Shown here: one piece after another, positions 18,226 to 34,515 of the stretch
How the letters are laid out: each line of letters opens with the position of its first letter
How positions within the stretch are numbered: the stretch's first letter is position 1
Assembly: GCF_004341685.1 (NCBI RefSeq)
Contig: NZ_SMAA01000005.1
Coordinates: 1-64,000, forward strand
DNA length: 64,000 bases
Reading direction: 5' to 3'
DNA from: Pectinatus cerevisiiphilus
Lineage (GTDB): Bacteria > Bacillota > Negativicutes > Selenomonadales > Selenomonadaceae
The notes under the pieces: generated by a model
What the model was told of the DNA's origin: nothing
The model's input: the letters and a program-made list of their open reading frames with translations, nothing else
The model's database searches: none
Made by a program: the position numbers and the translations under genes

Positions 18226-19305
18226 ATGGCAAAAATAACAGTCATCGGTGCAGGTGCAATGGGAAGTGCTTTTACCAAACCTATAGCGGATAATGGTAAC
18301 GATGTAAGATTATGGGGTTCCCCTCTTGATAATTCTATAATAGATAGTCTTAAAGCTGGTAAAAACCATCCCAAACATAACTATCCCTTACCAAAATCTG
18401 TTAAATTTTTCTATCATAATGAATTAGCAGAAGCGCTTAAAGATACTGATGTTGTAGTAATGGCAATTACTTCTGATGCCTTAGGTACTGTTTTTGAACA
18501 GGTGGTTCCTTACTTAAAACCTGGGATGCTGGTAGGCAGTGTAACCAAAGGTTTTAACTATGATAAATCAGGTAAAATAGTACTTTTACCCAATATTTTA
18601 GCAGAACGCCTCCCCAGCAGGTTAAAACAACAAATAGATTTTGTTTTTGTTGCCGGTCCATGTAAAGCTATTGAAGTATTATGGGGTGTTCCCACATCTG
18701 TAACTTATGCCAGCACTAATATCAAGGCTGCGGTAAAATTACGTACTCTAGCTGAAACAGAAGTATATAATATCGATACGACAGACGACGTAACCAGCAC
18801 CGAACTTTGTGCTGCCATGAAAAATGCCTATTGTGTAGGTCTAGGCATGGCTGAAGGTTTTCCTCAGCAAAAAGGAGGATTTCTTCACAAAAATACTAAA
18901 GGCGCATTATTTACATATGCTGTTACTGAAATGGGCATTTTTGCAAAAGCGCTTGGTGGAACACTGGGACCAGTGCTCGGCCTGCCTGGTATGGGAGACT
19001 TAGAACTTACCGGTGAAGCGGGTCGTAACCGCACTCTAGGTGAAGCTATTGGCAGCGGATTATCTGCAAGTCAAGCAATTGCCAAGATGAAAGAAAATGA
19101 TATTACCGTAGAAGGTTATCCTGCCATAAAATTCGGTTATCTATTAATGAAATCCTTAGAAAAAGAAGGGAAAATACCTTCTGCCAGCATGCCATTACTG
19201 TCTGGATTATACGACATACTTTATAATGATGCGGCCGGTTATGAATCAATTAAAAAGCTTGTCAAGCTCTGCACTGCTGCCAACATCAGCAACAGAAAAA
19301 TGTAA
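18226..19305 (+). CDS. GpsA-like NAD(P)-dependent glycerol-3-phosphate dehydrogenase homologue
   Basis: A 359-residue protein of the GpsA family. The Rossmann motif GAGAMGSAF starts at residue 8, the substrate-domain motif AMKNAYCVGLGMAEG near 203 contains the catalytic lysine, and AGRNRTLGEAI near 265 replaces the usual SRNxxxG signature. True GpsA makes glycerol 3-phosphate for lipids, but this copy is placed inside a galactitol-type PTS operon under sigma-54 control and slightly longer than typical (about 330-340). I infer that it oxidises the polyol phosphate delivered by the PTS, taking the place of GatD. A second housekeeping gpsA elsewhere would support this. Confidence 0.8.
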   Translation: MAKITVIGAGAMGSAFTKPIADNGNDVRLWGSPLDNSIIDSLKAGKNHPKHNYPLPKSVKFFYHNELAEALKDTDVVVMAITSDALGTVFEQVVPYLKPGMLVGSVTKGFNYDKSGKIVLLPNILAERLPSRLKQQIDFVFVAGPCKAIEVLWGVPTSVTYASTNIKAAVKLRTLAETEVYNIDTTDDVTSTELCAAMKNAYCVGLGMAEGFPQQKGGFLHKNTKGALFTYAVTEMGIFAKALGGTLGPVLGLPGMGDLELTGEAGRNRTLGEAIGSGLSASQAIAKMKENDITVEGYPAIKFGYLLMKSLEKEGKIPSASMPLLSGLYDILYNDAAGYESIKKLVKLCTAANISNRKM

Positions 19306-19310
19306 TATGC

Positions 19311-19358
19311 GGGGAGGTGAATCGTCTATTATAAAAAACAAATAATAGACAACGTTTT
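19311..19358 (+). promoter_or_regulatory. Displaced ribosome-binding site with hairpin before gatA
   Basis: The only good Shine-Dalgarno for gatA, GGGGAGG at 19311-19317, lies 41 bases before its ATG. Between them a perfect 9-bp stem, GTCTATTAT 19324-19332 with ATAATAGAC 19342-19350, could fold out and bring the site to within about 14 bases. Confidence 0.45.
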
Positions 19359-19826
19359 ATGGAAAAAACATTTCAATTTGATACATCTGTAAATCAAATA
19401 GCATTGGAAGCCAATAATGCAAAAGACGCACTAAAAAAAATTAGTTCTTTATTATATGACTTTGGTTATGTAAAAAGCACTTATCCAGAAGCAATAATTA
19501 CTAGGGAAAAATCTTTTCCCACAGGGCTTCCTTTCGAAAAATGTGGTATTGCTCTTCCGCACACTGATTGTTGCCACGTAAATAAACCCATGATCTCTAT
19601 TTCTACACTAAAAACTCCTGTCGTCTTCAAAAATATGGGAGACGCTAGTCAAGATGTATCTGTAAAAATGATTTTCATGCTTGCTATGAAAAAAAGTGAA
19701 AATCAGCTTCAATTATTATCTGAACTCATGGAAAATTTGCAGGATAATATTCTCATGGAAAATCTGCTTCAAGCACATTCTTCAGAAGAACTTACAAAAC
19801 TCATGTCAGGAAGAATAACTGTATAA
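19359..19826 (+). CDS. gatA: PTS galactitol-type EIIA
   Basis: A 155-residue EIIA of the fructose/galactitol fold. It takes phosphate from HPr on the histidine in GIALPHTD (about residue 68) and passes it to EIIB. The C-terminal half keeps the usual LLSELMENLQ helix. It follows the GpsA-like gene by 53 bases and precedes gatB. Start choice is uncertain because the nearest ribosome site is separated from the ATG by a hairpin, but the frame is closed by a stop just upstream so no longer version exists. Confidence 0.87.
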   Translation: MEKTFQFDTSVNQIALEANNAKDALKKISSLLYDFGYVKSTYPEAIITREKSFPTGLPFEKCGIALPHTDCCHVNKPMISISTLKTPVVFKNMGDASQDVSVKMIFMLAMKKSENQLQLLSELMENLQDNILMENLLQAHSSEELTKLMSGRITV

Positions 19827-19934
19827 GTAAAAACAATTTCACTTATATCGACTGCTATTGATTAATGATAGATTAATGATAATTAATATATTTATTTAAA
19901 TAAAATTTAAAAAGAAAAAAGAGAGGTATTTATA

Positions 19935-20234
19935 ATGAAATACAGATTATTAGCCATATGTGGCTCAGGTATCGCCACTTCAACAGTTGCCGCTGAAAAG
20001 TGCCGCAAACTTTTAACAGAAAAAGGGATTGACGTAGAAGTTCTCGAATGCAATGCCACTGATATAACAGCCAAGCTATCCACTTTTCAACCACATGTAG
20101 TAGTTCCGACAACCACGATTTCTGACTCTATGCTCGGTGGTGTAAAAAGATTTCCAGGACTTCCTTTCATCACAGGTATAGGTACTGAAAAAGTCGTAGA
20201 TGACATTGCTGAATATTTAAAGAGTATAAAATAA
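19935..20234 (+). CDS. gatB: PTS galactitol-type EIIB
   Basis: A 99-residue cytoplasmic EIIB whose phosphorylated cysteine is in the P-loop-like motif ICGSGIATSTVAAEKCR near residue 9. It receives phosphate from GatA and phosphorylates the incoming polyol at GatC. AGAGAGG precedes the ATG. It is the last gene of the sigma-54 operon and is followed by a bidirectional terminator. Confidence 0.9.
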   Translation: MKYRLLAICGSGIATSTVAAEKCRKLLTEKGIDVEVLECNATDITAKLSTFQPHVVVPTTTISDSMLGGVKRFPGLPFITGIGTEKVVDDIAEYLKSIK

Positions 20235-20313
20235 TACGTTCCCCATATGCTTGCACCATGTTATATATAGTATGTTAGATAAACTGTTTTCAATAGTATA
20301 AACTTTTTTACTA

Positions 20314-20357
20314 ATGCAAAAGAGGAAACCATTTAAAAATAGTTTCCTCTTTTATGC
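20314..20357. terminator. Bidirectional terminator between gatB and srlB
   Basis: GCAAAAGAGGAAAC from 20316 pairs with GTTTCCTCTTTT and following bases to 20356 around an AT loop, with T-rich sequence on either side. It separates the convergent galactitol and glucitol operons. Confidence 0.85.
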
Positions 20358-20397
20358 ATTCCCACTTGCTACTCATTACTGCCATTCATCTAATATT

Positions 20398-20760
20398 TTA
20401 GCCAATTGTAATAATATCACCAATTTTAGGTACTGGTGCACCATCACCGCTGAGATTTATCTGTCCTGGTAATTCAACTTCAGCTTTGTCAGTAAATTTC
20501 AATGTACAATGTCCCAATGTCTTTAATGTATGCTGTGCTTCTTCACCTACAGCAGTTACCGTATAGGTTTTTTCACCTATTACAAATTTATCTCCTACAG
20601 CCACTGGTTCACTGAGTTCTCCTTTAGTATGCATAAAACATACTTCGGCTAATGCTTCCATTTCACATTGCTCAAATATAACCATGTCACCGGCTTCCAA
20701 TAAATCCCCTGCTAACGGTCCAATACTAGTTATTTCTACACTGTACTTCAAACTGACCAC
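20398..20760 (-). CDS. srlB: PTS glucitol/sorbitol EIIA
   Basis: A 120-residue EIIA of the glucitol family (GutB/SrlB), a small all-beta phosphocarrier. The phosphorylatable histidine is probably in EVCFMHTKGEL near residue 43. KYSVEITSIGP at the N-terminus and the C-terminal INLSGDGAPVPKIGDIITIG are family-typical. It is the last gene of the operon: G1PDH homologue, gutM, srlA, srlE, srlB. Confidence 0.88.
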   Translation of the reverse strand: MVSLKYSVEITSIGPLAGDLLEAGDMVIFEQCEMEALAEVCFMHTKGELSEPVAVGDKFVIGEKTYTVTAVGEEAQHTLKTLGHCTLKFTDKAEVELPGQINLSGDGAPVPKIGDIITIG

Positions 20761-20918
20761 TCCTAAAATATTACTTTAATTTTCAAATTGTATTATTTGC
20801 TATTACCATCCAGATATCCTTTTTATAAAAAAATATCAGTTTAAGTATTTATCACTTAAACTAAACAAACTCAGATGAGTGCCGATATGCTCCCACCTGA
20901 ATTTGCTGTGAAATTTTA

Positions 20919-21908
20919 TTATGCAAATAAGCCAATGCCTACAAAATATGCCACAATAACACCTATTGGTCCGCCAACAGCACGCGACATAAGTATCGCC
21001 GGTACACCTATATCAACTGTTTCCGGTTCTGCTTCCATAAGACTCAGGCCTACCGGCATAAAGTCACAACCGACCTGTGAATCTATTGCAAACAATGCTG
21101 GAAGGGCAAACTGTGGTGAAATTGCCCCTGCCCCAATCTGTGTCCCGATAAGTACGCCGATAACCTGGGCAATAACTGCACCTGGGCCAAGCATCGGCGA
21201 AAGAATAGGCAAAGAACAAATTACTGATATAACGAACAATCCCGGTAATGAACCTGCATACGGTGAAAGATGTACCGCTATAAAATCGCCAAGGCCAGAA
21301 CCCATTATCAATCCTATAATCATACTGACAAAGGCCATAAACGGCAGTATTGTCTTGATAACCATGTCTATCGTATCGCGACCTGCTTGGAAAAAGATTG
21401 CTATTACACTACCAGCAGCCTTACCGAATCTTGTAAGTATATTTCCTTTTCCTGATGACGTTCCTGCCGGTGCGGCAGTTTTTGTTGCTGGTGTTGCTGC
21501 TGTCGGTGCTGGCTGTGGTGTGCTTGCCGCAGCTCCATCGGCAGTCACTGCGCTTATACCGTCTTCTTTTACATCTGATACATATATTGTTTCATTTATG
21601 AATGCTGCTAAAGGCCCTGATTTTCCTACCGGTGTTAAATTTACTGTAGGGATCCCTTTTTTCGGATATATACCACAGCGTAAAGTACCACCGCAATCTA
21701 CAATTGCCACTGCTATTTCTTCATCTGGTACGCCATTTTTGAAACCATCAATTAATTCTGCACCTAATATTTTCGCTATTTTATCTGCTATTGCTGGTTT
21801 TTCACCACCAGTTATATATACGACTTTGTTTCTGGTTCCCTCCAGTTTTATGGTGAGCGGCCCGCCAAAACCGTTTGGTCCTCTTTCTATTCTAACTGCA
21901 TTAGCCAT
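20919..21908 (-). CDS. srlE: PTS glucitol/sorbitol EIIBC component (SrlE)
   Basis: A 329-residue protein with an N-terminal EIIB domain (phosphorylated cysteine in [16 protein letters not shown] near residue 75), an Ala/Pro/Thr-rich linker (about residues 148-172) and a C-terminal membrane part beginning [22 protein letters not shown]. This matches SrlE/GutE. The linker is longer and more alanine-rich than I recall in E. coli. A long open frame on the opposite strand (20875-22134) is a shadow of this gene. Confidence 0.9.
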
Positions 21909-21923
21909 TTTTTATATCCTCCT

Positions 21924-22472
21924 TTATACCTGCATACCTTTTTTCTTCATCATATACAGTGTGATCTTTTCTGTAATAATACCGCGAATCAATATTACAA
22001 TTACACCTGCTATAAAGTACCGCACAGCAAGCTCACTTGTATCTAATCCCAGCTGGGTAATACCGTTTGCAATACCAAGCCACACAAAAAGTTCTGCCGG
22101 GTTAGCATGTGGGAAAAGACCAGTTATCGGATGACAAAAGCTAATACATGAATCCATAAAGGCCGGTTTGTACTTCTCTGGCAGGAAACGTCCTAACGTA
22201 TATGCCATGGGGTTGCCCAAAAAGAACATGGCAATTACATTAAAAACAGTATAACGCAGAATAATATTTTTGCTTGTCAACTTAGCAAATTTATTTATCC
22301 TTTCCTGTCCCAAAATATTTATAAATGCATTAATAGCTGTAATAAGCGCTATCAATGTGGGCAGCATACCGGTAACCATACCAACGAAGCTCTCCCCGCC
22401 TTTATGGAAAAGGCCGATAAACCCTGCTGCCAATACCCCCAAATACTGCATAATCCCTGTTACTCCATCCAT
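21924..22472 (-). CDS. srlA: PTS glucitol/sorbitol EIIC component (SrlA)
   Basis: A 182-residue membrane protein typical of SrlA/GutA, one half of the split glucitol permease. FIGLFHKGGESFVGMVTGMLPTL near residue 20 and the NPAELFVWLGIANG loop near 120 are characteristic. It starts 15 bases before srlE and partners with it in the membrane. A possible internal promoter lies upstream at 22652-22681. Confidence 0.9.
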   Translation of the reverse strand: MDGVTGIMQYLGVLAAGFIGLFHKGGESFVGMVTGMLPTLIALITAINAFINILGQERINKFAKLTSKNIILRYTVFNVIAMFFLGNPMAYTLGRFLPEKYKPAFMDSCISFCHPITGLFPHANPAELFVWLGIANGITQLGLDTSELAVRYFIAGVIVILIRGIITEKITLYMMKKKGMQV

Positions 22473-22651
22473 CTTTGTTCCTCCTCAATATTTTTTACGA
22501 ACTTTGATAACCCCTTTGTGTAAGAAAGAATTTGCACTCCCTTCAACGATAGATTTATGTAAATGCCTACAGTCTACACTTGTTAGTTATTTAAATACAC
22601 AAACAATTTCTCCACTTTTACTGTATAATCATTGCAATACTTATATTAATT

Positions 22652-22681
22652 ATTATAAATTAGATATTGCAAATTTTCTAA
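22652..22681 (-). promoter_or_regulatory. Possible internal promoter before srlA
   Basis: Minus-strand TTAGAA (22681-22676) and TATAAT (22657-22652) are 18 bases apart, in the 240-base gap between gutM and srlA. The -35 is weak. Confidence 0.3.
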
Positions 22682-22713
22682 CTATTTTATAAGTGACATA
22701 TATAAAAAAACAC

Positions 22714-23079
22714 TTATGCCACACTTAACTTTTCTTCTAAGCTTGTTAAGGCTTGTAACAATGCCTGGTTTTTCTTTTTTTCCTTCAAGGCTTCCTGCTT
22801 TAACTCCATATAATTTTTGCCTTCCCATTTGGCAATATTCTTAAATCGAGCCAGCAAAGTAACGCCCTTCATCTGTTTTGCCTCAATTATTTGCCCAGAA
22901 TCGTCAGTTACTAAAACAACAACATTCCCTGATGATAGTTTACGTTTCTTTACCCCTATACCAACATGTCCTTTATCCATAAGCTTTCTCACAGTTGCCT
23001 TAAAATGATTCATCTGCATATATACAAAAAAACATTGAGCAATATATAAAACAAAGGCAAGTAATAATATCTTTTCCAT
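22714..23079 (-). CDS. gutM: Glucitol operon activator GutM
   Basis: A 121-residue GutM-family protein. The N-terminal 18 residues form a hydrophobic segment (ILLLAFVLYIAQCFF), then comes the family core MNHFKATVRKLMDKGHVGIGVKKRKLSSGNVVVLVTD. GutM is known in enterobacteria as an activator of the glucitol operon, though the membrane-like N-terminus makes the mechanism unclear. It sits between the dehydrogenase and the PTS genes, as in many glucitol operons. Confidence 0.85.
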   Translation of the reverse strand: MEKILLLAFVLYIAQCFFVYMQMNHFKATVRKLMDKGHVGIGVKKRKLSSGNVVVLVTDDSGQIIEAKQMKGVTLLARFKNIAKWEGKNYMELKQEALKEKKKNQALLQALTSLEEKLSVA

Positions 23080-23149
23080 ATTTGCTCCTTCTATTTTTGC
23101 AGGATAAAAGAGATATATCTTTTATCCTGCAACTACAATTTACTATAAC

Positions 23150-24520
23150 TTATTGTTTAATAAAATCATCTATTATCTTTGTATATTTTTCTGTCAACCC
23201 TAAGTCTGAAAGCATATTCAAGATAGTATAACGTTGACGGACTTCTTTAGCTATCAACATACTATTATGAACTATTGTTTCATCGACGCCGACTTCCTGT
23301 GGACGAAGCGGTGCACCGGCTTTTTTCATAATATTTTCAATAAATACTGATGTTTTAGCAGTTTTTGCCAAAGCCAGTATTTTATCAAAATTATCTCTTA
23401 TCGTTTTGATTCTTTTAATCCTATTTTCTATCGAATTTCTATTATCTTTTTTAGCATTCCTTAAAATTCCTGGTGCGGCTTTTCCATAGAGTCTTTTAAT
23501 ATCTGCTTCCCATTTTTCTTCATCAAACTTTTTAGCAGCTTCAATAGCGGCATCAAAATCAACTTTTTCATGCGCAAACGTTTCATAAATTTTTCCAGCA
23601 ATGATACTGGTAAGTCCCACTTTCGTTCCATGTAAAAGAGCTTCTTTGCCTTGGAACAAAAACATCATTTCCCAATAGTGGGAAAGATGATGTTCGGAGC
23701 CAGATGCAGGACGGGAATTATTTACATAACTCATTGCTATACCTGTACGTAAAAGGCCATCCATGATATTAGCAATCGCAGTATCTGAACGAGTTTTGAC
23801 ACCATCAATATTATCTATGCATTTTTGGACAGCATCTTCCGATATTTTTGCAGTTGCTTCGCAATAATATTCATTATTTATAATTCTACTCAATTTCCAA
23901 TCTATCAGTGCCGAACATTTGCCGATCATGTCGCCCAGCCCTGCTAAAATCATCCGTTCCGGTGCTTTTTTCAGTATGTCAATATCGCCAAGAATAACTT
24001 TTGGTAATTCGCACGGAACACTAGTCTTCAAATTATCGATAGTCAATGCAGAGGTATCTGACACAAATCCATCCATGGAAGGTGCAGTAGCTACTATCAT
24101 ACCTTTTATACCGGTACGACGGCTTATATATTTAGTAAGATCGTTCAAAACGCCTGAACCAACCGCTATAAGAAAATCTGTCGAATTATCAACAGCAAGA
24201 ATAAGTTTACCCATAGCTTGTTCATCTGGAACTAGATCACGTTCTACTTGATAAACTAAAGTTTTATATTCAATATTATTCTTATCAAAGAGTTCTTCTA
24301 CCTTTTTACCTGCTACTTCATATGTGTGAGTATCTGCAATTATCAACGGATGTTTACTGTTATATTCATTTACTATATTGACAAGCTTATTTATAGCTCC
24401 ATTTTCTATAATAACTTTGTCAACCTTCATATAATGTTCATGTCCGCATTCACAATCAATTTTTTTACCAATAAAATCGTTGATTCCCATCTTTTCAACA
24501 GCAGCTGCTGTTAACTTCAT
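23150..24520 (-). CDS. Glycerol-1-phosphate dehydrogenase (AraM/EgsA) homologue, copy 1
   Basis: A 456-residue protein of the iron-alcohol-dehydrogenase superfamily, AraM/EgsA branch. Motifs: nucleotide-binding VGSGVLNDLTKY near 137, TAPSMDGFVSD near 165, metal-ligand region GLGDMIGK near 218, and SRPASGSEHHLSHYWEM and HGTKVG near 285-305, which carry the metal histidines. An N-terminal Cys-x-Cys-Gly-x-x-His motif (about 24-29) precedes the core. True family members reduce dihydroxyacetone phosphate to sn-glycerol 1-phosphate. Here it leads a glucitol PTS operon with no sorbitol-6-phosphate dehydrogenase, so it may act on the PTS-made polyol phosphate. A paralogue is at 33169. Confidence 0.82.
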   Translation of the reverse strand: MKLTAAAVEKMGINDFIGKKIDCECGHEHYMKVDKVIIENGAINKLVNIVNEYNSKHPLIIADTHTYEVAGKKVEELFDKNNIEYKTLVYQVERDLVPDEQAMGKLILAVDNSTDFLIAVGSGVLNDLTKYISRRTGIKGMIVATAPSMDGFVSDTSALTIDNLKTSVPCELPKVILGDIDILKKAPERMILAGLGDMIGKCSALIDWKLSRIINNEYYCEATAKISEDAVQKCIDNIDGVKTRSDTAIANIMDGLLRTGIAMSYVNNSRPASGSEHHLSHYWEMMFLFQGKEALLHGTKVGLTSIIAGKIYETFAHEKVDFDAAIEAAKKFDEEKWEADIKRLYGKAAPGILRNAKKDNRNSIENRIKRIKTIRDNFDKILALAKTAKTSVFIENIMKKAGAPLRPQEVGVDETIVHNSMLIAKEVRQRYTILNMLSDLGLTEKYTKIIDDFIKQ

Positions 24521-24716
24521 ATAAATCCATCCCCTCTTTATTTTACTTGCAAAACATTCTAAAAGTTACAAGTAATAATAAATTTCCATGTGTATAAACA
24601 CTTCTGTATATATAATGCCAGCAAAAATCCTAATAATTAAAATACAAAATGCGTTTAAATGCCCTTTTGTCTTTTGTTTGTTATCGTTTTTATTTTATTT
24701 GTTTTGATTTACATTT

Positions 24717-24744
24717 ATTATAACAAATTATTTTTAAAAAGCAA
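24717..24744 (-). promoter_or_regulatory. Promoter of the glucitol PTS operon
   Basis: Minus-strand TTGCTT (24744-24739) and an extended -10 TGTTATAAT ending at 24717 are 16 bases apart, about 200 bases before the start codon. The leader and the rest of the 617-base gap up to the HAD gene are very AT-rich, with repeated TTTGTTT-like words that could be regulator sites; no known riboswitch is visible. Confidence 0.55.
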
Positions 24745-25098: not shown

Positions 25099-25137
25099 CT
25101 ATTCAAGAGTATAAAGTAACTAAAGAGGTGTAAACAC

Positions 25138-25947
25138 ATGCTTGCGAATGTAAACGAAGACAAAGACAATATTTTAAAAGATATTGATGTATTTGCCCTT
25201 GATATGGACGGTACTATTTATCTTGATGAATATTGGATAGACGGTGCAAAAGATTTTCTAAAGAAAATTGAAGAATCAGGACGTAGGTATATTTTTTTAA
25301 CCAATAACTCATCCAAAAACTCTAAAAATTATGTTGATAAACTTCATAAGATGGGTCTTGATGTAGATATTGATAAAATCGTGACTTCAGGCCAGGCAAC
25401 AGTTTATTATCTCCAACAAAATTATCGTGGAAAAAGAGTTTTCTTGTTAGGTAACAATTTACTCAAAGAAGAGTTTAGGGAAGGCGGCATTACACTTGAT
25501 GACACTAATCCCGATGTAGTAGTTACTGCCTTTGACACCACATTAGATTACAATAAAATGTGTAAGGTTTGCGATTTTGTCAGAGCAGGTTTACCTTATA
25601 TTTCAACCCATCCTGATTATAACTGCCCAACCAAAACTGGATTCATTCCAGACGCAGGTGCAATTCATGCTTTTATCAAGGCCTCTTCTTTCAGATATCC
25701 CGACCATATTATTGGCAAACCAAATGCAGATATTATAAAATATCTACTAGCAAGACTTCATACAACAGGTGATAAAGTTGTAATGGTAGGCGATCGGCTT
25801 TATACAGATATTGCCGCTGGAAAGAACAATGGACTTTATAGTATGTTAGTACTAAGCGGCGAAACTAAGCTTGAAGATGTGGAATCTTCCGAAGTCAAGC
25901 CCCATCTTATATTTGACTCCGTAAAAGAAGTTATCCCACTTTTATAA
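25138..25947 (+). CDS. HAD-IIA family sugar phosphatase (NagD/AraL type)
   Basis: A 269-residue HAD hydrolase of subfamily IIA. Motif I is ALDMDGTIYL near residue 21 (nucleophile and acid/base aspartates), motif II is LTNNSSKN near 58, the cap domain follows, and motif III/IV is GKPNADII and MVGDRLYTDIAAGK near 195-225. NagD/AraL enzymes dephosphorylate a range of sugar phosphates. In Bacillus subtilis araL and araM lie in one operon; here the HAD gene is divergent from an AraM homologue, which is a similar pairing. It might relieve sugar-phosphate stress or act on the product of the dehydrogenase. The substrate is unknown. Confidence 0.85.
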   Translation: MLANVNEDKDNILKDIDVFALDMDGTIYLDEYWIDGAKDFLKKIEESGRRYIFLTNNSSKNSKNYVDKLHKMGLDVDIDKIVTSGQATVYYLQQNYRGKRVFLLGNNLLKEEFREGGITLDDTNPDVVVTAFDTTLDYNKMCKVCDFVRAGLPYISTHPDYNCPTKTGFIPDAGAIHAFIKASSFRYPDHIIGKPNADIIKYLLARLHTTGDKVVMVGDRLYTDIAAGKNNGLYSMLVLSGETKLEDVESSEVKPHLIFDSVKEVIPLL

Positions 25948-26091: not shown

Positions 26092-27009
26092 TTAAAAAGA
26101 TTTTACTGCCCTTATAATATCTTTAGCAGTCAACTTATATTTCTCCAATAACACTTCAGGGGCACCAGATGTTCCAAACTCATCATTTATACCAACAAAT
26201 CGAATTGGAACTGGCCATTCAACTGATAATATTTCACTAACGGCGGAACCTAGTCCACCAATAATTGTATGTTCTTCTACAGTTACTATACGTTTCGTTC
26301 GTTTTGCCACTTCTACTATCAATTTACGGTCTATGGGTTTTATAGAACATATATTTACAACACTAGCATGTACTCCATCTTTAAGAAGTATTTCAGCTGC
26401 TTCGATAGCACGACTTGTCATAATTCCCGTGCTAATTATAGCTACGTCAGTACCATCTCTTAATACTTCACCTTTACCAATACAAAATTTATAATCGTCA
26501 CCGTGTATATCTGGTACCGCTATACGACTTATTCTTAAATATACAGGACCTTTATAAGCGATAGCAGCCTTTATAGCCATTTCAGTTTCTTTAGCATCAG
26601 CTGGTACTAAAACTACCATATTAGGTACACTGCGCATCAACGCAATATCTTCTACTGCCTCATGCGTAGCACCATCATATCCCACGCATACACCATTATG
26701 TGTACCTACTAATTTCACATTAAGGTTACCATGTGCCACTGTATTTCTTACCTGATCAAAAGCCCTACCTGTAATAAACACTGAAAATGTTGTAGCAATT
26801 GGTATCATATCACACGTTGAAAGTCCTGCAGCAATTCCTACCATATTTTGTTCGGCAATTCCTATATCTAAAAACCTTTCTGGACATACATCTTTAAATT
26901 TTAAAGCTCTTGTAGCTGAACCCAAATCTGCATCCAAAACTACAATCTTAGGATTTTCCTTTAATTCACAGAGAGTTTCCCCAAATACATCCCGCATAGC
27001 CTTTGGCAT
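26092..27009 (-). CDS. Transketolase, C-terminal subunit (copy 2)
   Basis: A 305-residue C-terminal half of split transketolase, clearly paralogous to the gene at 10319: DIGIAEQNMVGIAAGLST near residue 50 carries the thiamine-activating glutamate, and VEEHTIIGGLGSAVSEIL lies near 245. It follows the N-terminal half with one base overlapping and is the last gene of the ascorbate-type PTS operon. That context suggests it processes a pentulose phosphate made from the imported sugar. Confidence 0.92.
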   Translation of the reverse strand: MPKAMRDVFGETLCELKENPKIVVLDADLGSATRALKFKDVCPERFLDIGIAEQNMVGIAAGLSTCDMIPIATTFSVFITGRAFDQVRNTVAHGNLNVKLVGTHNGVCVGYDGATHEAVEDIALMRSVPNMVVLVPADAKETEMAIKAAIAYKGPVYLRISRIAVPDIHGDDYKFCIGKGEVLRDGTDVAIISTGIMTSRAIEAAEILLKDGVHASVVNICSIKPIDRKLIVEVAKRTKRIVTVEEHTIIGGLGSAVSEILSVEWPVPIRFVGINDEFGTSGAPEVLLEKYKLTAKDIIRAVKSF

Positions 27010-27827
27010 TATATATCACCTTCTAATTCTCTAAATATTTTTTCAAACTGAACCCTATCAGGTATTTTCCCGTGCCAAATGGGATTATTTTCCATAAAAG
27101 ATATACCTTTTCCTTTTATCGTATCAGCAATTATAACGGTAGGACGCCCACTAGTAGAACAGGCCATTTCCAATGCATTTCTTATATCGCGAAAATCATG
27201 TCCATTAATTCTTATTACATTCCAATTAAATGCAGCAAACTTTTTATCCAATGGGGCAATACCCATAACGTCTTCATTAGACCCATTTATTTGTAACTTA
27301 TTATAATCAACTATTAATGTAAGATTATCAAGTTTATATTTTACAGCACTCATTAATGCTTCCCAATTTTGTCCTTCATCAAGTTCTCCATCTCCAACAA
27401 TTACATACACACGGAATTTTTCATGTTGCATATGTGCAGCAATTGCCATTCCGCACCCAATGGATAATCCCTGTCCAAGAGAACCTGTAGACATATCTAC
27501 CCCTGGAGTAGTATTCATATCCGGATGGCCTTGTAAGATAGATCCGTACTGTCGCAACGTAGAAAGCTTTTCTTTAGCAAAATACCCTTTTTCTGATAGT
27601 ACTGCATAATAGCTAGGATTACCATGCCCCTTCGAAAGAATTAATCTATCGCGATATTTCCAATTAGGTTCATGAGGTTTTATATTCATTTTCTCAAAAT
27701 AAAGTGTTACCAATATCTCCACCATTGATAAAGCTCCGCCAGGATGTCCAGTTCCTGCTTTTTCTAACATCTGCATTGTACTTAACCGTATCCGCTTGGC
27801 TATTTTTTTTAATTCTATAATATCCAT
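27009..27827 (-). CDS. Transketolase, N-terminal subunit (copy 2)
   Basis: The thiamine-diphosphate-binding half, 272 residues, with AGTGHPGGALSMVEILVTLYF near residue 20, LSKGHGNPSYYAV near 65, and GDGELDEGQNWEA near 140. GAGAGGAA directly precedes the ATG at 27827; an upstream in-frame TTG at 27848 would overlap that site. It comes 42 bases after the PTS permease gene in the same operon. Confidence 0.92.
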   Translation of the reverse strand: MDIIELKKIAKRIRLSTMQMLEKAGTGHPGGALSMVEILVTLYFEKMNIKPHEPNWKYRDRLILSKGHGNPSYYAVLSEKGYFAKEKLSTLRQYGSILQGHPDMNTTPGVDMSTGSLGQGLSIGCGMAIAAHMQHEKFRVYVIVGDGELDEGQNWEALMSAVKYKLDNLTLIVDYNKLQINGSNEDVMGIAPLDKKFAAFNWNVIRINGHDFRDIRNALEMACSTSGRPTVIIADTIKGKGISFMENNPIWHGKIPDRVQFEKIFRELEGDI

Positions 27828-27869
27828 TACTTTTTCCTCTCTCTTCAAACAAATTATTAGTCAAATATA

Positions 27870-29144
27870 TTAATTAAAAAGAGCTATTAATTTTGCAAAT
27901 GCTAGGCCTATTGTTGCGTAAAACGGATCTCCAAAAGTACTTCCGGTATTAGCTAAGGCTCCTGTACTAGGAATCAAATATCCTGTACCTATTGTAAGGA
28001 CAATACCGACTATAAAAGGTCCCACAATTGCCCCTTTCCACCCACCAGTACTATTACCAAATATACCAGCAGTGCCCCCAGCAAAAAATGCGGGTACTAT
28101 TCCAGGTAATATAATATATACTGAATTAATTCCAAATTGAATAAACATACCTATTATCATTCCAATAAACATAGATACAAAACCAAATATAAGTGCTGTT
28201 GGTGCATAAGGAAACACCGCCGGACAATCAATTGCCGGAATTGCCCCTGGAATAATTTTCTCAGATATACCAGAAAATGCAGGTATAATTTCAGATAACA
28301 TCATACGTACACCTGCTAAAACTATTGTTACACCTCCAGCAAAGGTCAACCCCTGTATAATGGCAAACATAAATGGATTCATTTCTTTGCTAATGTTCTG
28401 TTCTACATAACTATACCCTGTAATTAAGACTGCTATCAAAAATATTACAACCATTGTTATTGCCATACTTGCTGTAGAATCTCTAAAAAAGCTTAAACTT
28501 TTTGGTAATTTAAATTTTTCAGCACTTTGTTCTGGTTTGCCAATATATTTACCAAGCCACGCTGAAAACCAGTACCCTATATCACCAGTATGTCCAATTG
28601 TAAAAGCTTCACCTCCTGTAATCTTTTTTGTATACGGGTTAAGTAAAGCAGGCATAAAAGTAAAATATATTCCCATAGTTACAGAACCGACAATAAATAG
28701 CATTGCTCCACTTAGATTGGCCAATGATACATATATAGCAGTAACAAATAATGAAACATACAGCATAACATGCCCTGTAAGATAAATAAATTTAAATTTG
28801 GTCACTCTAGCCAATATAAGATTCATAATAAATCCACCTACCATTACCAATGCGCCCATTGAACCAAAATTAGCAATAGCAAACGGAAGGACTGCTTCAT
28901 TTGTGGGAATTATACCATTTATTCCGATTCCTGCATTCAAAATAACTCCTAGCGGAGCTAATGAATTCCCAACTATTCCCGCACCTCCACCAATAATCAA
29001 AACACCAATTATCGTTTTTAATGTTCCCATAACTACTTGGTTCATCGGCCTTTTTTGCATTAATAACCCGACCAAGGCCACTACGCCAAGTAAAATTGAA
29101 GGCTGAGAAAGCACTTGAAATACTATAAAATTAATAATTTCCAT
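27870..29144 (-). CDS. PTS ascorbate-type EIIC permease (UlaA family)
   Basis: A 424-residue UlaA-family permease with about eleven hydrophobic segments. The N-terminal FIVFQVLSQPSILLGVVALVGLLMQK, GFIMNLILARVTKFKFIYLTGH near residue 100, and ITGGEAFTIGHTGDIGYW near 175 are hallmark blocks. UlaA takes up L-ascorbate with concomitant phosphorylation, but operons pairing this PTS with split transketolase rather than ula lactonase and decarboxylase genes probably handle another sugar. It overlaps the EIIB gene by one base. Confidence 0.88.
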   Translation of the reverse strand: MEIINFIVFQVLSQPSILLGVVALVGLLMQKRPMNQVVMGTLKTIIGVLIIGGGAGIVGNSLAPLGVILNAGIGINGIIPTNEAVLPFAIANFGSMGALVMVGGFIMNLILARVTKFKFIYLTGHVMLYVSLFVTAIYVSLANLSGAMLFIVGSVTMGIYFTFMPALLNPYTKKITGGEAFTIGHTGDIGYWFSAWLGKYIGKPEQSAEKFKLPKSLSFFRDSTASMAITMVVIFLIAVLITGYSYVEQNISKEMNPFMFAIIQGLTFAGGVTIVLAGVRMMLSEIIPAFSGISEKIIPGAIPAIDCPAVFPYAPTALIFGFVSMFIGMIIGMFIQFGINSVYIILPGIVPAFFAGGTAGIFGNSTGGWKGAIVGPFIVGIVLTIGTGYLIPSTGALANTGSTFGDPFYATIGLAFAKLIALFN

Positions 29145-29443
29145 TATATTTCACTCCTATGTTTCTTCAATTCCTCAATTTTCGTAATAAGTTTTTTCTC
29201 AATTTCATCTTTCTTAAAAAAATTAGTAATGAATATAATTTTTTGCGGATCAATGTATTTCAATGAATCTTTTAATGCCTCAACGGTAATTATTAAATCA
29301 AAATTTTCACCTAAAATTGAAGCTACACCAGCTGTTTCTACATCATTTTCTATTCCCAATTTATCTAACACTGACCTTACATGTATTTTAGCAATCATGC
29401 TACTACCAAGCCCTTGTGGGCAAACCGTAAATATTTTTAACAT
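29144..29443 (-). CDS. PTS ascorbate-type EIIB
   Basis: A small EIIB, 99 residues from the ATG preceded by AGGAGG; an upstream GTG at 29467 would lie over that site. The phosphocysteine loop TVCPQGLGSSMIAK starts near residue 6. It is placed between EIIA and EIIC, as in ula operons. Confidence 0.88.
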   Translation of the reverse strand: MLKIFTVCPQGLGSSMIAKIHVRSVLDKLGIENDVETAGVASILGENFDLIITVEALKDSLKYIDPQKIIFITNFFKKDEIEKKLITKIEELKKHRSEI

Positions 29444-29497
29444 AATAAATCCTCCTAAAATGAACACATTATATATTTAGTAATTCATAATTCAAGT

Positions 29498-29953
29498 CTA
29501 AGAAAAAATATCCAATACAGTTTGGATGGTTGCCGCATCTTTTATCTTTTTTACTTTTTCTTTGTTTCCCAATATTTGCACTAATTCTGACAATTCTTGC
29601 AAATGCTCTTCATCCCTAGTAGCTGCTAAACAAACAACAATACTTACTGGATCATTTTCCTTATTACCAAATGCTACAGGTGACTTAAGTGTTATAAGAC
29701 TCATTCCTAACTTTTTAACTCCAGCTACAGGATTAGCATGCGGCATTGCTATTCCCGGCGCCAATACTATATACGGTCCAATATCTTTAACAGCTTGTAT
29801 CATGGCTTCTATATATTCTTGCTCTATAGCACCAATATTCTCTAATAATCTTCCCCCTTCTCTAATTGCTTCTTCCCAATTTTGAACATTGATATTTATT
29901 CGCACTGTATACTTATTAATTAAATCAGCTATCATACTTTTCACTTTCCTCAA
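29498..29953 (-). CDS. PTS EIIA, fructose/mannitol/ascorbate type
   Basis: A 151-residue EIIA-2 domain (about 145 if the second Met at 29935 is used). The phosphorylated histidine lies in PGIAMPHANP near residue 73; VSIVVCLAATRDEEHLQEL and a C-terminal dimer helix follow. The 5' end overlaps the end of the upstream regulator gene, so the regulator and PTS are one transcription unit. Confidence 0.87.
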   Translation of the reverse strand: MRKVKSMIADLINKYTVRININVQNWEEAIREGGRLLENIGAIEQEYIEAMIQAVKDIGPYIVLAPGIAMPHANPVAGVKKLGMSLITLKSPVAFGNKENDPVSIVVCLAATRDEEHLQELSELVQILGNKEKVKKIKDAATIQTVLDIFS

Positions 29954-31902
29954 ATTTATTTATTATTTCTTCAAATCCTCTATTTACTAACCATTTATTA
30001 GGTAACTTAGCTTCTATAAACTTTTCAAATAATATTTCGAAAAAACCACTCCAAAGTTCATTTAAATTTTTAGGAATACATAACAAAAATACCAATTGTA
30101 CATATTCTTTATACCAAATAATAGGTCTATCCAACACAGCCACTGCAACACAAGCTTCTTTAATATTTTTATCTAATGCATGAGGAATTGCTATACACTG
30201 TCCGATCTCTGTAGAAGATAATTTTTCTCTATTAATTATTATGGTTCTTATCTTTTCATCAATGTATTGTTTCTTTATCATTTTATTAGTAATTAAATCT
30301 ATAACTTCATATGCGCTTTTAGCTTTCAGTGCTGGAAAGAATAAATCTTTTTTAAAAAAATTTTTATAATTAATAATATGCTTATTAGCAATTCTGTTAA
30401 TCCGTTTTTCCACTTTTAATAAATCCGCCTCTGACATTATAGGTGTTATTCTTACAATTTTAGATGAATCTATCGCAACGGGTACTGTCGAAAATACAAA
30501 ATCAACTTTTTTTATTTCTTCTAGTGTTAGTTCATAACAACTCATAACTTTTTCTATATGCAAATTCTCACCAAAATGCCTCTGTAATTTACTTTTTGCC
30601 AATAGTGCTGTAGACAATCCCATACTACAAACTATAATTGCACGTTTAATTTTTCTTGTATTTAATTTATTACGTTCTAGTGATGCCTCAAAATGAATTG
30701 CTAAAAAACCTATTTCATTTTCATTGGTTTTTACACGTTCTTTTTTCTCTAAAACTTCAGCTGCTAAAACAGCCATTTCAAACGCTAATGGATAATTATC
30801 TTTCACTGTTTTTAAAATATCATTTTTAATATTCATATTGAATTTCAACCTGCTAATGGCTGCTATTAAATGAATCATCAACCCTGATATAAGTTCATTA
30901 TCAATTGATAAATCAATTTCTGTATTAGCTTCTATTGATTTCAATATATCATTTACTAACGGAAAAATATCATCCCGACTCTTAGCTGATTCAATAAACT
31001 TTTGACTAGCAATAAAATGTTGTGTTAAATAATACACTTCATTACTTATATCAACACCCAATTGGACATTTACTGCATTTAATATTTCACTTGCCGGAAT
31101 AAAATAATTTGATTTTTGCAAATATTGCTGCTGACTTTCATTATATTCAACTGTATTTTTTTTTATAGCTCTACGCATGGTAATAATAATGTGTACCAAC
31201 AAATTTTTAAATGCTACATCTGTTAAATGAATATTATGTTTTAATATTATTTTTAGTACTATATCTTTAATAGTATCAATTTCAGCCTTAGGAAATATAT
31301 CACTAACAAATTTATTATTTGCTAAATTTAATAGATTATCATGGTTAAAAATATATGCTGACATACAATAACGTATTTGCATCTCATTACCTTCTATTTT
31401 TATACCGTTTCTGCAATTTGTAATAAGTTTAATATTAAATTTACTTAAGTTGTTCTTTATGTCTTTTAAATATTTTTTTAATGTGGATAAACTTATAAAT
31501 AATTCATCTGCTAATTCTTCTTGATTAACCATTTTATTATGAAGAAAATTTATCAATATTCTGATTATGATAAACGATATACGATCATCATAATAAAAGG
31601 GGGACTATGTTAATACCTTTATAACATTTCTCTTTACTAATAGAATACATATCTACAAAATTATCATATTTCTTGTAATCATCAATTACAAGCGTATATC
31701 CCTGCCCTGTTTTAGAAATAATATGTGCGCCCTTATCTTTTAGCAAAACCATCAAGGCCCTCATATCTTTGCGTACAGTCTTACTACTTACTCCTAGTGA
31801 ATTTGAAAAGGTATTTCCTGTAATAGTATTGCCTTCCTTACTAAACAGTTTCAGGATTTCTAAGATTCTTCTATTTTGAATAATCATCATAATATCCTCC
31901 AC
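29925..31902 (-). pseudogene. BglG/MtlR-family PRD regulator, interrupted by a frameshift
   Basis: Two adjoining frames together make one regulator of about 658 residues. The first (31902-31588) has a DeoR-like winged helix (residues 8-65, TFSNSLGVSSKTVRKDMRAL). The second (from about 31590 to 29925) has a Mga-like helix (NQEELADELFISLSTLKKYL), two PRDs, an EIIB-Gat-like domain (VCSMGLSTALLAKSKL) and an EIIA-2 domain (GQCIAIPHAL). They are out of phase at a C5-T4 run (minus strand, 31603-31595). Removing one base from the run gives uninterrupted reading INIVPFYYDDRISF. It heads the ascorbate-type PTS operon and should activate it. This could be a true mutation, a reversible homopolymer switch, or a sequencing error. 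Confidence 0.82.
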
Positions 31903-31930
31903 TGCTTTTATTATATATTCAATGTTTTGA

Positions 31931-31983
31931 TACTTCCAGCTATAAAAGTTCCTTAATATAAGGCATTTTTATAGCTGGAAGTA
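31931..31983. promoter_or_regulatory. 17-bp perfect inverted repeat upstream of the PRD regulator
   Basis: TACTTCCAGCTATAAAA at 31931-31947 and its exact reverse complement at 31967-31983 flank a 19-base loop, 28 bases upstream of the regulator start. Neither side has a terminator-like T run. It could be an operator for the PRD regulator or an RNA hairpin. A minus-strand TATAAT lies between it and the gene. Confidence 0.5.
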
Positions 31984-32081
31984 TTAAAATAACGTTGGGG
32001 CAACTAAAGTAATCGTTTAAAACTTTGCTAAATTAATCTCCTCCATAATTCCAATCACTATAATATACTTTTATAATAAAT

Positions 32082-32122
32082 ATGCCATCACCAGTTTAAA
32101 TAGATTAAATTGGTGATGGCAT
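32082..32122. terminator. Weak hairpin downstream of the GDT1-family gene
   Basis: TGCCATCACCA near 32083-32093 pairs with TGGTGATGGCA near 32111-32121, extended with one mismatch by TTTAA/TTAAA. The T run is poor, so it is only a possible terminator for the leftward transporter gene. Confidence 0.4.
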
Positions 32123-32209
32123 AACAAACAATAAACACCTGGAATAATATCTCAGTAGCAATTACCATTTGTAATTATTCTACTATAATATCTCCATTTC
32201 CCAAATCAT

Positions 32210-32881
32210 TTAACAATTACATTTTGTTTTTTTATGGTTTTTCATATTAACATACGACATAAAATAAATAGCTGCTCCCGCAATAATAAGCGCACCCAAA
32301 ATACAAGTAAATATTAACACTTCATTATTCAAAGCCCTATATAAACCGAACAGGCCAAAAGTAATAAAGACTATCGCCGCAGTCCATTTTACCGTACGTT
32401 CCGGAATCTTTTTCCCTAAAACAATACCTACTACAATTCCTAAGCCGTCAGCCAGCATCATCCCAGTGGTACTTCCCAACCATACAGGCAGCACTGTATC
32501 AAATTGAGAAGAAAGCGTAATAGTAGCCAATTGTGTTTTATCACCCATTTCCGCCATAAAAAAAGCAATTGCGATTGTCCAAAAGGGCCCATACTTAGCC
32601 ATATTTTCTTTACCGCTTAATTTATCGCCCCGCAATGTCCATAAACCGAATATTATAAATGCGATTGATGCGGCAATTTGGATATAATATATTGGTACAA
32701 GCCGCGTAAGATAATTCCCTATGAGTACCGCGAGAAGATGATTAAAAACAGTTGCGGCAAACACACCCCACATAACAGTCTGCCAGCGGTACCGCACAGC
32801 AAATGCCATTGCCAGAAGCTGTGTCTTGTCTCCCATTTCCGCCAAAATGACGAAAAGCAGTGAAGTTATAAATGCTGTCAT
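32210..32881 (-). CDS. TMEM165/GDT1 (UPF0016) family manganese exporter
   Basis: A 223-residue integral membrane protein with two copies of the family signature EMGDKTQ (starting at residues 15 and 111) in two homologous halves of about three helices each. The bacterial members characterised so far (MneA type) export Mn2+. A manganese riboswitch of the yybP-ykoY class lies directly upstream, which strongly supports that role: the gene would be switched on when Mn2+ is high. It ends in KTKCNC. Confidence 0.92.
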   Translation of the reverse strand: MTAFITSLLFVILAEMGDKTQLLAMAFAVRYRWQTVMWGVFAATVFNHLLAVLIGNYLTRLVPIYYIQIAASIAFIIFGLWTLRGDKLSGKENMAKYGPFWTIAIAFFMAEMGDKTQLATITLSSQFDTVLPVWLGSTTGMMLADGLGIVVGIVLGKKIPERTVKWTAAIVFITFGLFGLYRALNNEVLIFTCILGALIIAGAAIYFMSYVNMKNHKKTKCNC

Positions 32882-32924
32882 TCCTTCATTCCTCCAATAA
32901 TTCTCTATTTTTCTTCATATATAT

Positions 32925-33058
32925 AAAAAAAGACCTCCGGCGTGATAAAAAATCACGTCGAAAGTCTCGCTAATTGACATTTGTCAACGATAAGGCCAGG
33001 CACTATTTACTACAATACCAGTTTGTTGACCTTACCTATATAAGCTACTCCCTTTTGT
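32925..33058 (-). promoter_or_regulatory. yybP-ykoY manganese riboswitch with terminator
   Basis: Minus strand: AAAGGGAGTAGC (33056-33044) opens the aptamer, CCTGGC lies near 32999, and AGCGAGACTTTC (about 32972-32960) closes it; these are the conserved yybP-ykoY blocks. A 16-bp imperfect hairpin, with stems at about 32966-32951 and 32946-32931, ends in a T run, giving an expression platform. Mn2+ binding should prevent the terminator from forming. Confidence 0.92.
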
Positions 33059-33069
33059 ACATTGTTTGC

Positions 33070-33098
33070 AGTATAACCTATATAAATATTATTGTCAA
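33070..33098 (-). promoter_or_regulatory. Promoter of the Mn-riboswitch transcript
   Basis: TTGACA (33098-33093) and TATACT (33075-33070), 17 bases apart on the minus strand; transcription would begin just before the aptamer. Confidence 0.8.
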
Positions 33099-33168
33099 CT
33101 GATCTATTGTACTATTTATTGTTAATATTTTATTAACAAATTTTTCAGCATTAATAATTGATTGATAT

Positions 33169-34515
33169 TTATTTCATCTTTTCTATTTGCTTGCATACTT
33201 CATCTGCAATTTCCTGCTGCCATCCGCAATCAAACATAAGCTGCAACACACCATATCTATTCCGTAATTCTTTTGCGTAAATTATACCATTCCTAACCAT
33301 TTCCATAGTCACATCTATTTGATCAGGACGATACGGTGCATCTATTTTTTTCATGCGTTCAATCATTTTATCGACAGTTGGTAATTTTTCTGCCAGTTCA
33401 ATAATTTCTGCTTTATGCTTAGCAACCATAGCAAGCCGTTTTGCTACATTTTCGTCAGTATTCTTTTGCGCACGTTCTTCGAGCGCTATAACACCTGGTG
33501 CAGCCGGTCCATACACACGTTTGATATTTTCTTCCCATGCCATTTTATCAAAATGTGGTTTTGCAAATGACGACGCAGCTTTCAATTTTTCAGCGGTTTT
33601 CCGATATAACAGCAATGCTATTATCGTGCCCACTCCTACTTTTGTCCCATGATGCACACCTTCATGTCCATGTTGTAGAAAAATCATTTCCCAGTAATGG
33701 GACATATGGTGTTCACTGCCTGACGCAGGCCGCGAATTACCACTATAGCTCATATCAATTCCCGCTAAGGCAAGTCCTTCCATAACAGCACCTACAGATT
33801 TTTCATCACGTTCCTTTATGCCATTATCCGCAGCTGCTGCAACATCGGCCACAGCCCCATACATTATATCAACCAATCTATCACAATAGTATTCCCCAGT
33901 GACAATATGTGCTAACTTCCAATCTGTAAGACATACATATTTCCCAAAGATATCACCGATGCCAGCAGTAATCAAATGCATTGGTGCATCCTTTAAAACA
34001 GCGGTGTCAACTATAATCGCCGTAGGACGCCCCATATTTTCATATGTTGTCTTTAAACTATCCACCATCAAAGGTGCTACGTCTGAGGCATAACCATCCA
34101 TAGATGGTGCCGTGGCAATTATAAAATAATCGGCCTTTATAGTATGTGACGTAAACCTACATAAATCATTGATGACTCCTGAGCCAATGCCTATTAAAAG
34201 ATCACAGCCATTAGGTATATGTGTTATAATCTTCCCTGCTGCCAATTCATCAGGTACCAATTCATGATTAGTAAATATATATTTACTATAACTTATGCCA
34301 TTATCTTCAAGTATTTTATAAACTTTCTGTCCTGCAGCTTTTTCTGTATTAACATCAGCAATAATACAAATTTTTTTATAATTTTTTTCTTTTATATATT
34401 CAGGTAATATAGCAATAGCATCGTGGGTGATATGTACATGGCGCATATCGCATTCATGTACTTTTCCACAAGCACAATCAATTTTTCTTCCAATATAATC
34501 TTTCCAGTTACGCAC
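33169..34515 (-). CDS. Glycerol-1-phosphate dehydrogenase (AraM/EgsA) homologue, copy 2
   Basis: A paralogue of the gene at 23150, with the same layout: N-terminal DCACGKVHE motif, GIGSGVINDLCRF, TAPSMDGYASD, GIGDIFGK, SRPASGSEHHMSHYWEM and HGTKVG with the metal ligands. AGAGGGGG precedes the GTG at 34515 (448 residues); a longer frame to 34542 would start inside that site. It is the last gene of the sigma-54-driven mannose-type PTS operon, about 80 bases after EIID. The two copies are similar but clearly diverged, so a recent duplication is unlikely. It probably oxidises or reduces the phosphorylated PTS substrate or its breakdown product; the true substrate is unknown. Confidence 0.82.
   Translation of the reverse strand: MRNWKDYIGRKIDCACGKVHECDMRHVHITHDAIAILPEYIKEKNYKKICIIADVNTEKAAGQKVYKILEDNGISYSKYIFTNHELVPDELAAGKIITHIPNGCDLLIGIGSGVINDLCRFTSHTIKADYFIIATAPSMDGYASDVAPLMVDSLKTTYENMGRPTAIIVDTAVLKDAPMHLITAGIGDIFGKYVCLTDWKLAHIVTGEYYCDRLVDIMYGAVADVAAAADNGIKERDEKSVGAVMEGLALAGIDMSYSGNSRPASGSEHHMSHYWEMIFLQHGHEGVHHGTKVGVGTIIALLLYRKTAEKLKAASSFAKPHFDKMAWEENIKRVYGPAAPGVIALEERAQKNTDENVAKRLAMVAKHKAEIIELAEKLPTVDKMIERMKKIDAPYRPDQIDVTMEMVRNGIIYAKELRNRYGVLQLMFDCGWQQEIADEVCKQIEKMK

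Follow-up and report, generated by a model that had tools for sequence, protein, structure and literature searches.

Three operons for phosphotransferase systems (PTS) of the glucitol, mannose and galactitol types were analysed on a stretch of 64,000 nucleotides (contig NZ_SMAA01000005.1, hereafter the window, which is contig C5 of a 2.63 Mb genome), and each was found to carry a dehydrogenase homologue of the glycerol-phosphate class: an AraM/EgsA-family protein in the first two (AraM1 and AraM2, respectively) and a GpsA homologue in the third. Close relatives of the window genes occur in P. frisingensis, P. brassicae and Pectinatus haikarae, which assigns the host, a beer-spoilage-type bacterium, to Pectinatus. 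The arrangement is real and conserved, and it likely exposes a misannotation that should be corrected. Judged from the sequences and their context, the operons are probably catabolic units in which AraM or GpsA acts as the dehydrogenase of a polyol phosphate supplied by the PTS. The data suggest that AraM or GpsA oxidises a C4 or C5 polyol such as erythritol once the PTS has taken it up. Such a route would be new to the literature, and the arrangement would represent a variant of polyol catabolism whose predicted substrate can be tested.

Dehydrogenases of the three PTS units

The island of polyol-type operons spans approximately 9.8-40 kb of the window, and all the genes named here are intact open reading frames (ORFs; Table 1). 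As an earlier note on this DNA had claimed, the glucitol-type operon starts with an AraM/EgsA homologue; it contains GutM, no SrlD-type short-chain dehydrogenase/reductase (SDR) was found in it, and its SrlA and SrlE exceed their NCBIfam equivalog cut-offs. The same note was right that the mannose-type operon, a IIA-IIB-IIC-IID run, ends with a second AraM/EgsA homologue, and that the galactitol-type IIC-IIA-IIB unit has no GatD and carries a GpsA homologue, in which both NAD_Gly3P_dh domains were matched (N domain, E 1e-24; C domain, E 5e-25). With no GatD and with a IIC below the galactitol cut-off, this last unit falls outside the definition of a galactitol (Gat) operon. No dehydrogenase besides AraM or GpsA is present in any of the three units. 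The galactitol- and mannose-type units are regulated separately, in agreement with the earlier note, since each has its own activator of the LevR type and, 5′ of its first gene, an exact sigma54 -24/-12 box.

AraM1 and AraM2 contain the Fe-ADH_2 domain (E 3e-30 and 8e-30), and the best NCBIfam model for both was PRK00843, the sn-glycerol 1-phosphate (G1P) dehydrogenase (E 1e-65 and 8e-57); their scores of 222 and 193 bits, however, missed its equivalog cut-off of 413 bits. AraM1 has the fold and catalytic residues of the EgsA/AraM family (D197, H277 and H297, with the GxG NAD motif), and this GxG NAD-binding motif, together with the D, H and H residues aligned with the metal ligands, is conserved in all PTS-linked AraMs. 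EgsA/AraM of known structure (Bacillus subtilis, PDB 9h4x; archaeal, 4rfl/4rgq) belongs to the same family (E 8e-58) and shares these residues, but the window proteins score below the equivalog cut-off, stand in a PTS context and are longer. Such long-form AraMs have a C-terminal insertion and an N-terminal CxCGxxH motif; the motif was found in 45/45 PTS-linked proteins and in 33/47 others, and nothing aligned there in B. subtilis EgsA or the Methanocaldococcus jannaschii protein when the cores of these two were compared.

The GpsA homologue scores under every GpsA cut-off. The PTS-linked GpsA subfamily forms a clade separate from the housekeeping GpsA of Negativicutes (support 100/100), with an identity of 22-28% between the two. 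The window homologue was the sole GpsA-family gene detected in the window genome, and one near-complete Pectinatus genome has no GpsA-family gene at all. A housekeeping role is disfavoured by the separate clade and by the missing gene in that genome. As a general observation on Pectinatus genomes, no housekeeping GpsA was detected in them, and the PTS-linked copy is their only GpsA-family gene.

Conservation of the arrangement in other genomes

AraM was surveyed in 381 Negativicutes genomes at a threshold of E 1e-70 or better, and 24 genomes were positive. The gene-neighbourhood check proposed in the earlier note bore out the link with PTS genes: a PTS lies within 6 kb of 44 of the 48 Negativicutes AraM genes examined and of none of the 39 in sampled other Bacillota, the loci being partly non-independent as several species per genus are included. 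Apparent glucitol-PTS matches beside AraM outside the Negativicutes (L069, L089, L098 and L103) were left out, as they were classed as SrlR-type (DeoR) regulators. Chance falls far short of explaining the association, which is conserved across genera. Most PTS-linked AraMs fall in one clan of the tree (49 rows, 41 of them PTS-linked; SH-like approximate likelihood-ratio support 99), apart from B. subtilis EgsA, and one small group linked to galactitol-type PTS (4 rows) lies outside it. Literature searches returned no report tying AraM to PTS or to erythritol.

The AraM1 lineage pairs with a glucitol, mannose or ascorbate PTS depending on the genus, and its nearest PTS-free relatives are accompanied by RpiB, an AraB-type (ribulokinase-like) kinase and an ABC transporter (L070) or by NagD (L069); the enzyme set is thus constant and the transporter variable. 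The conserved partners of AraM and GpsA are RpiB, transketolase (Tkt), the TalC transaldolase and a NagD-type phosphatase, and an RpiB-family isomerase with Tkt or transaldolase (Tal) is linked to the dehydrogenase in relatives at four loci (L027, L034, L114 and L029). In Propionispira arboris (L114) the order is DeoR, TalC, split Tkt, RpiB, AraM1, GutM-SrlA-SrlE, second RpiB, SrlB and NagD, and in Clostridium psychrophilum (L027) RpiB, AraM1, NagD, two TalC, Tkt and GpsA form one run behind SrlE, SrlB and enzyme I. The PTS enzyme I gene at this last locus (L027:1562-3193) lies within the AraM/GpsA glucitol-PTS cluster. Two Rubrobacter plasmids (L182 and L183) carry NagD, AraM, RpiB, FGGY kinases and a GpsA-type gene in one run, with a transketolase close by in one of the two and two copies of AraM in L183; the L183 GpsA-type protein, the one Rubrobacter locus compared, belongs to the same subfamily as the window GpsA (35% identity). 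The set of AraM, GpsA, RpiB, NagD and Tkt therefore recurs in another phylum, with a kinase replacing the PTS.

Members of the GpsA family with 50-85% identity were found beside galactitol-type PTS genes in Pectinatus, Propionispira, Propionispora, Pelosinus, Geosporobacter and clostridia. In six loci the family adjoins RpiB, one of them (L029) being a minimal array of TalC, RpiB and GpsA. In Clostridium tyrobutyricum (L034), Tkt, TalC and RpiB are found beside GpsA, a triose-phosphate isomerase (TIM)-like protein, an EryC-like protein and a galactitol-type PTS. This EryC-like protein shares 29-30% identity with EryC-like counterparts in erythritol-type loci of rhizobia, and one such gene, on a rhizobial plasmid, has the neighbours seen in an erythritol locus: a kinase, a SorC-type regulator and a GlpD-type dehydrogenase.

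Four long AraM genes were identified in the window genome, all of them within PTS operons. AraM3 and AraM4, which are encoded outside the window, both belong to galactitol-type PTS operons. The AraM3 operon (contig C2, L011) consists of a PTS regulation domain (PRD) regulator, IIA, IIC, a GatD-like zinc-dependent alcohol dehydrogenase (Zn-ADH), RpiB, ribulose-phosphate epimerase (RPE), a broken second Zn-ADH and AraM. The second Zn-ADH (L011:8888-9932) is present here as two overlapping frames and is whole in P. haikarae (L145), pointing to a pseudogene or an assembly error. The AraM4 operon (contig C30, L012) contains a PRD regulator, IIA, IIC, AraM, a 2-hydroxyacid dehydrogenase, AraD and an AraR-like regulator; the AraD is a true L-ribulose-5-phosphate 4-epimerase (NF006047, 391 against a cut-off of 257), and its reading as a class II aldolase was ruled out.

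The earlier note had suggested that the three units have a strategy in common, the PTS making a polyol phosphate that an enzyme of the glycerol-phosphate class then oxidises. That idea gains from its recurrence in several families with RpiB, Tkt, Tal and NagD, but not in the form of stand-ins for SrlD and GatD on sorbitol and galactitol. The split transketolases, RpiB and phosphatase that it had placed downstream all exist; however, the phosphatase gene is divergent from AraM1, RpiB lies outside the region to which the note referred, and there are two Tkt pairs (10319-12084 and 26092-27848), the second with the ascorbate-type PTS.

Predicted pathway and substrate

Judging from the type of enzyme II, the PTS would take up the polyol and phosphorylate its terminal carbon. 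AraM, given its family, conserved catalytic residues and context, would then oxidise a polyol phosphate with the carbinol stereochemistry of sn-glycerol 1-phosphate to a ketose phosphate, and the GpsA-type enzyme would perform the mirror reaction on polyol phosphates of sn-glycerol 3-phosphate (G3P) stereochemistry, like EryB in Brucella. RpiB-family isomerases would convert the ketose phosphate to an aldose phosphate, which transketolase and transaldolase would feed into the pentose-phosphate pathway. The NagD-type phosphatase would remove side products. When erythrose 4-phosphate is high, 4-phosphoerythronate is expected to form as a by-product, and PGP-like phosphatases of the NagD type can remove this compound.

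The substrate that we favour for AraM1 and GpsA is a tetritol, which would yield D-erythrose 4-phosphate; erythritol comes first among the tetritols and, as the particular substrate, is put at a little short of an even chance. For AraM3 (with RpiB and RPE) and AraM4 (with AraD), pentitols are more likely. EgsA acts on G1P and GpsA on G3P, in which the carbinols beside CH2-O-P are mirror images. From this geometry, the GpsA-type enzyme should take L-erythritol 4-phosphate, and the AraM-type enzyme should take D-erythritol 4-phosphate and yield L-erythrulose 1-phosphate. L-erythritol 4-phosphate is the substrate of EryB in Brucella (PMC11508834), and L-erythrulose 1-phosphate appears as the intermediate in the title of a 1968 study of erythritol in Propionibacterium pentosaceum, as cited in PMC4437456. 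In a 2015 genome study of P. freudenreichii, 21/21 strains fermented erythritol and adonitol and the genes were not found, and an araB-araB-araM-araL locus present in all strains was filed under arabinose (PMC4437456). Because L-erythrulose 1-phosphate is what a G1P-type enzyme would make from D-erythritol 4-phosphate, and the araM locus is universal there, we propose AraM as a candidate for the D-erythritol-4-phosphate dehydrogenase whose gene is missing from the propionibacterial pathway. Equally possible is an oxidation at C2 to D-erythrulose 4-phosphate, which RpiB would convert to D-erythrose 4-phosphate for Tkt and Tal; this would agree with the window genome having no second TIM.

Among the closest described systems is the erythritol pathway of Brucella and Rhizobium (EryA kinase, GlpD-type EryB, EryC, EryH, RpiB-type EryI, and Tkt/Tal), which likewise starts with phosphorylation and uses a glycerol-phosphate-class dehydrogenase, an RpiB-family isomerase and Tkt/Tal, and with which the C. 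tyrobutyricum locus also shares EryC-like and TIM-like genes. In the window, by contrast, a PTS takes the place of kinase and ABC transporter, soluble AraM or GpsA that of the flavin enzyme EryB, and EryC and EryH were not seen. As a whole, we tentatively put forward a third bacterial C4-polyol route, consisting of PTS uptake of erythritol or threitol, an AraM-type D-tetritol-4-phosphate or GpsA-type L-configured dehydrogenase, RpiB and Tkt/Tal, the AraM of its kinase version being the missing propionibacterial gene; we hold this full combination to be possible, at a probability nearer to a third than to a half.

Phenotypic evidence at the species level is sparse and mixed. Propionispira arboris ferments erythritol (PMC10491768), and literature searches returned no report on polyol use by the window species itself. 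Several points weigh against the favoured explanation. This species also uses sorbitol, dulcitol and D-arabitol, and one Pelosinus isolate did not use erythritol (PMC5023247), though Pelosinus genomes carry AraM1 and GpsA. The window genome has a single TIM, and no EryC or EryH paralogues were found as far as searched, EryC having been looked for in the window region; isomerisation of a ketose 1-phosphate would therefore need the RpiB paralogues, or AraM would have to oxidise C2. The window RpiB and first Tkt pair are near AraM1 but in another operon. Some GpsA operons have a FucA-like aldolase and a Zn-ADH, which fits a pentitol better, and the AraM catalytic residues are those of an ordinary G1P dehydrogenase, leaving room for glycerol-phosphate activity. 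No TalC was found near the window polyol units.

Should AraM prove to be a polyol-phosphate dehydrogenase, the very common and misleading label of sn-glycerol-1-phosphate dehydrogenase in bacteria that lack G1P lipids would gain a testable function, and many genes so labelled would be polyol-phosphate dehydrogenases. Candidate genes would also become available for an old biochemical pathway, and genomes would allow one to predict what becomes of erythritol and other sweetener polyols in anaerobes.

Alternative explanations

The PTS families of the window units, and GutM, are shared with the Srl and Gat operons of Escherichia coli, but the window units have AraM or GpsA and no SrlD or GatD inside. 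In relatives, a further glucitol PTS of a different kind is paired with either an SrlD-like SDR (61% to E. coli SrlD in genome G703) or an HSDH-like dehydrogenase, the latter being also the case for the other glucitol PTS of the window genome (contig C13). On these grounds, sorbitol and galactitol were rejected as substrates of the AraM/GpsA units. The earlier note had regarded SrlD or GatD genes elsewhere as a possible refutation; such genes exist, but they belong to other PTS operons and do not refute the proposal. Rather, these separate glucitol operons and the position of AraM3 beside a GatD-like Zn-ADH indicate that the AraM-linked PTS is a paralogue serving a different polyol, most probably a tetritol or pentitol. 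As a separate observation, P. haikarae (L177, G536:C4) has a second SrlA/SrlE, 89-95% identical to those of the window, adjoining a GatY-like aldolase and a Zn-ADH-like gene.

All the units could instead serve pentitols (ribitol, D- or L-arabitol, xylitol), with the PTS making a pentitol 5-phosphate, AraM or GpsA oxidising C2 to a pentulose 5-phosphate (or giving a pentulose 1-phosphate), and RpiB, RPE, AraD or an aldolase with Tkt finishing the route. The RpiB, RPE and Zn-ADHs beside AraM3, the true AraD and AraR-like regulator beside AraM4, the ribulokinase-like kinases adjoining PTS-free AraM and the fermentation of adonitol by P. freudenreichii, for which the 2015 study found no genes (PMC4437456), speak for it; yet in the AraM1 and GpsA clusters RpiB, TalC and Tkt occur mostly without RPE or AraD, and the EryC-like and TIM-like proteins of C. 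tyrobutyricum point to tetrulose phosphates. On this balance we consider pentitols for every unit rather unlikely. A mannose-type PTS also feeds a polyol phosphate to a dehydrogenase in the ribitol operon of Lactobacillus casei, which uses a ribitol-5-phosphate 2-dehydrogenase of another family and a phosphoketolase.

It is improbable that AraM and GpsA are ordinary glycerol-phosphate dehydrogenases joining G1P or G3P with dihydroxyacetone phosphate (DHAP) after the PTS has phosphorylated glycerol, or with dihydroxyacetone involved. The conserved catalytic residues would suit such a role, as would the GpsA homologue being the only GpsA-family gene detected in the genome; however, DHAP requires none of the conserved partners RpiB, Tkt and Tal, and the divergence of the GpsA subfamily from housekeeping GpsA and its absence from one Pectinatus genome argue against it. 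A small probability is likewise left for AraM and NagD as repair enzymes that reduce, oxidise or dephosphorylate dead-end polyol phosphates beside another main dehydrogenase. Arabinose use in B. subtilis is described as not requiring araL and araM (PMC4437456), and the GatD-like Zn-ADH beside AraM3 could be such a main enzyme, but the window units offer no other candidate. Far less probable still is true G1P metabolism for archaeal-type or heptaprenylglyceryl lipids, the alternative named in the earlier note. The AraM family does include B. subtilis EgsA/AraM and the archaeal G1P dehydrogenases; nevertheless, G1P lipid synthesis was rejected, as PcrB/GGGPS was absent from and PlsY present in all seven genomes tested, the window's included, and the four AraM paralogues each lie within a PTS operon.

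Features of the island

Table 1. Genes and promoter elements of the polyol-type island (positions in the window).
Feature	Position	Strand	Remarks
RpiB/LacAB-family isomerase; predicted ketose-P/aldose-P isomerase (EryI/DerI-like step)	9828..10289	-	PF02502 1e-53; orthologues adjoin AraM1 or GpsA family in other genera
Split transketolase pair 1, C-terminal part	10319..11257	-	domain match
Split transketolase pair 1, N-terminal part	11254..12084	-	domain match
DeoR/GlpR-family repressor	12465..13316	+	orthologue heads Propionispira AraM1 operon (L114)
LevR-type sigma54-dependent PRD activator of galactitol-type operon	13356..16145	-	from sequence; stays beside galactitol-type PTS and GpsA in relatives
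Exact sigma54 -24/-12 box, 5′ of galactitol-type operon	16385..16400	+	
Galactitol-type PTS IIC	16655..17917	+	TIGR00827 3.5e-143, 477 bits against cut-off 542
GpsA-subfamily dehydrogenase; predicted L-configured polyol-phosphate dehydrogenase	18226..19305	+	family, tree
Galactitol-type PTS IIA	19359..19826	+	
Galactitol-type PTS IIB	19935..20234	+	
Glucitol-type PTS IIA (SrlB)	20398..20760	-	
Glucitol-type PTS IIBC (SrlE)	20919..21908	-	NF049924 6e-142
Glucitol-type PTS IIC (SrlA)	21924..22472	-	
GutM-like protein	22714..23079	-	
AraM1, long-form AraM/EgsA family; predicted D-configured polyol-phosphate dehydrogenase	23150..24520	-	starts glucitol operon
NagD/AraL-type phosphatase of haloacid dehalogenase (HAD) class IIA; possible metabolite repair (e.g. 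4-phosphoerythronate)	25138..25947	+	conserved beside AraM1
Split transketolase pair 2, C-terminal part	26092..27009	-	adjoins ascorbate-type PTS
Split transketolase pair 2, N-terminal part	27009..27848	-	adjoins ascorbate-type PTS
Ascorbate-type PTS IIC, IIB, IIA	27870..29953	-	also adjoins AraM in L120, L128
BglG/MtlR-type PRD regulator, two adjacent ORFs	29925..31902	-	
AraM2, second AraM/EgsA-family dehydrogenase	33169..34542	-	42% identical to AraM1
Mannose-type PTS IID, IIC, IIB, IIA	34599..37102	-	run ends with AraM2
Exact sigma54 -24/-12 box, 5′ of mannose-type operon	37145..37160	-	
LevR-type sigma54-dependent PRD activator of mannose-type operon	37344..39986	+	from sequence; stays beside mannose-type PTS and AraM in relatives

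The segment 26092-31902, with the ascorbate-type PTS, split transketolase and PRD regulator, is syntenic with AraM in other families (L120 and L128). A GDT1/TMEM165-like membrane protein is encoded at 32210-32881 between the polyol units, and it adjoins AraM2 also in P. haikarae (L141).

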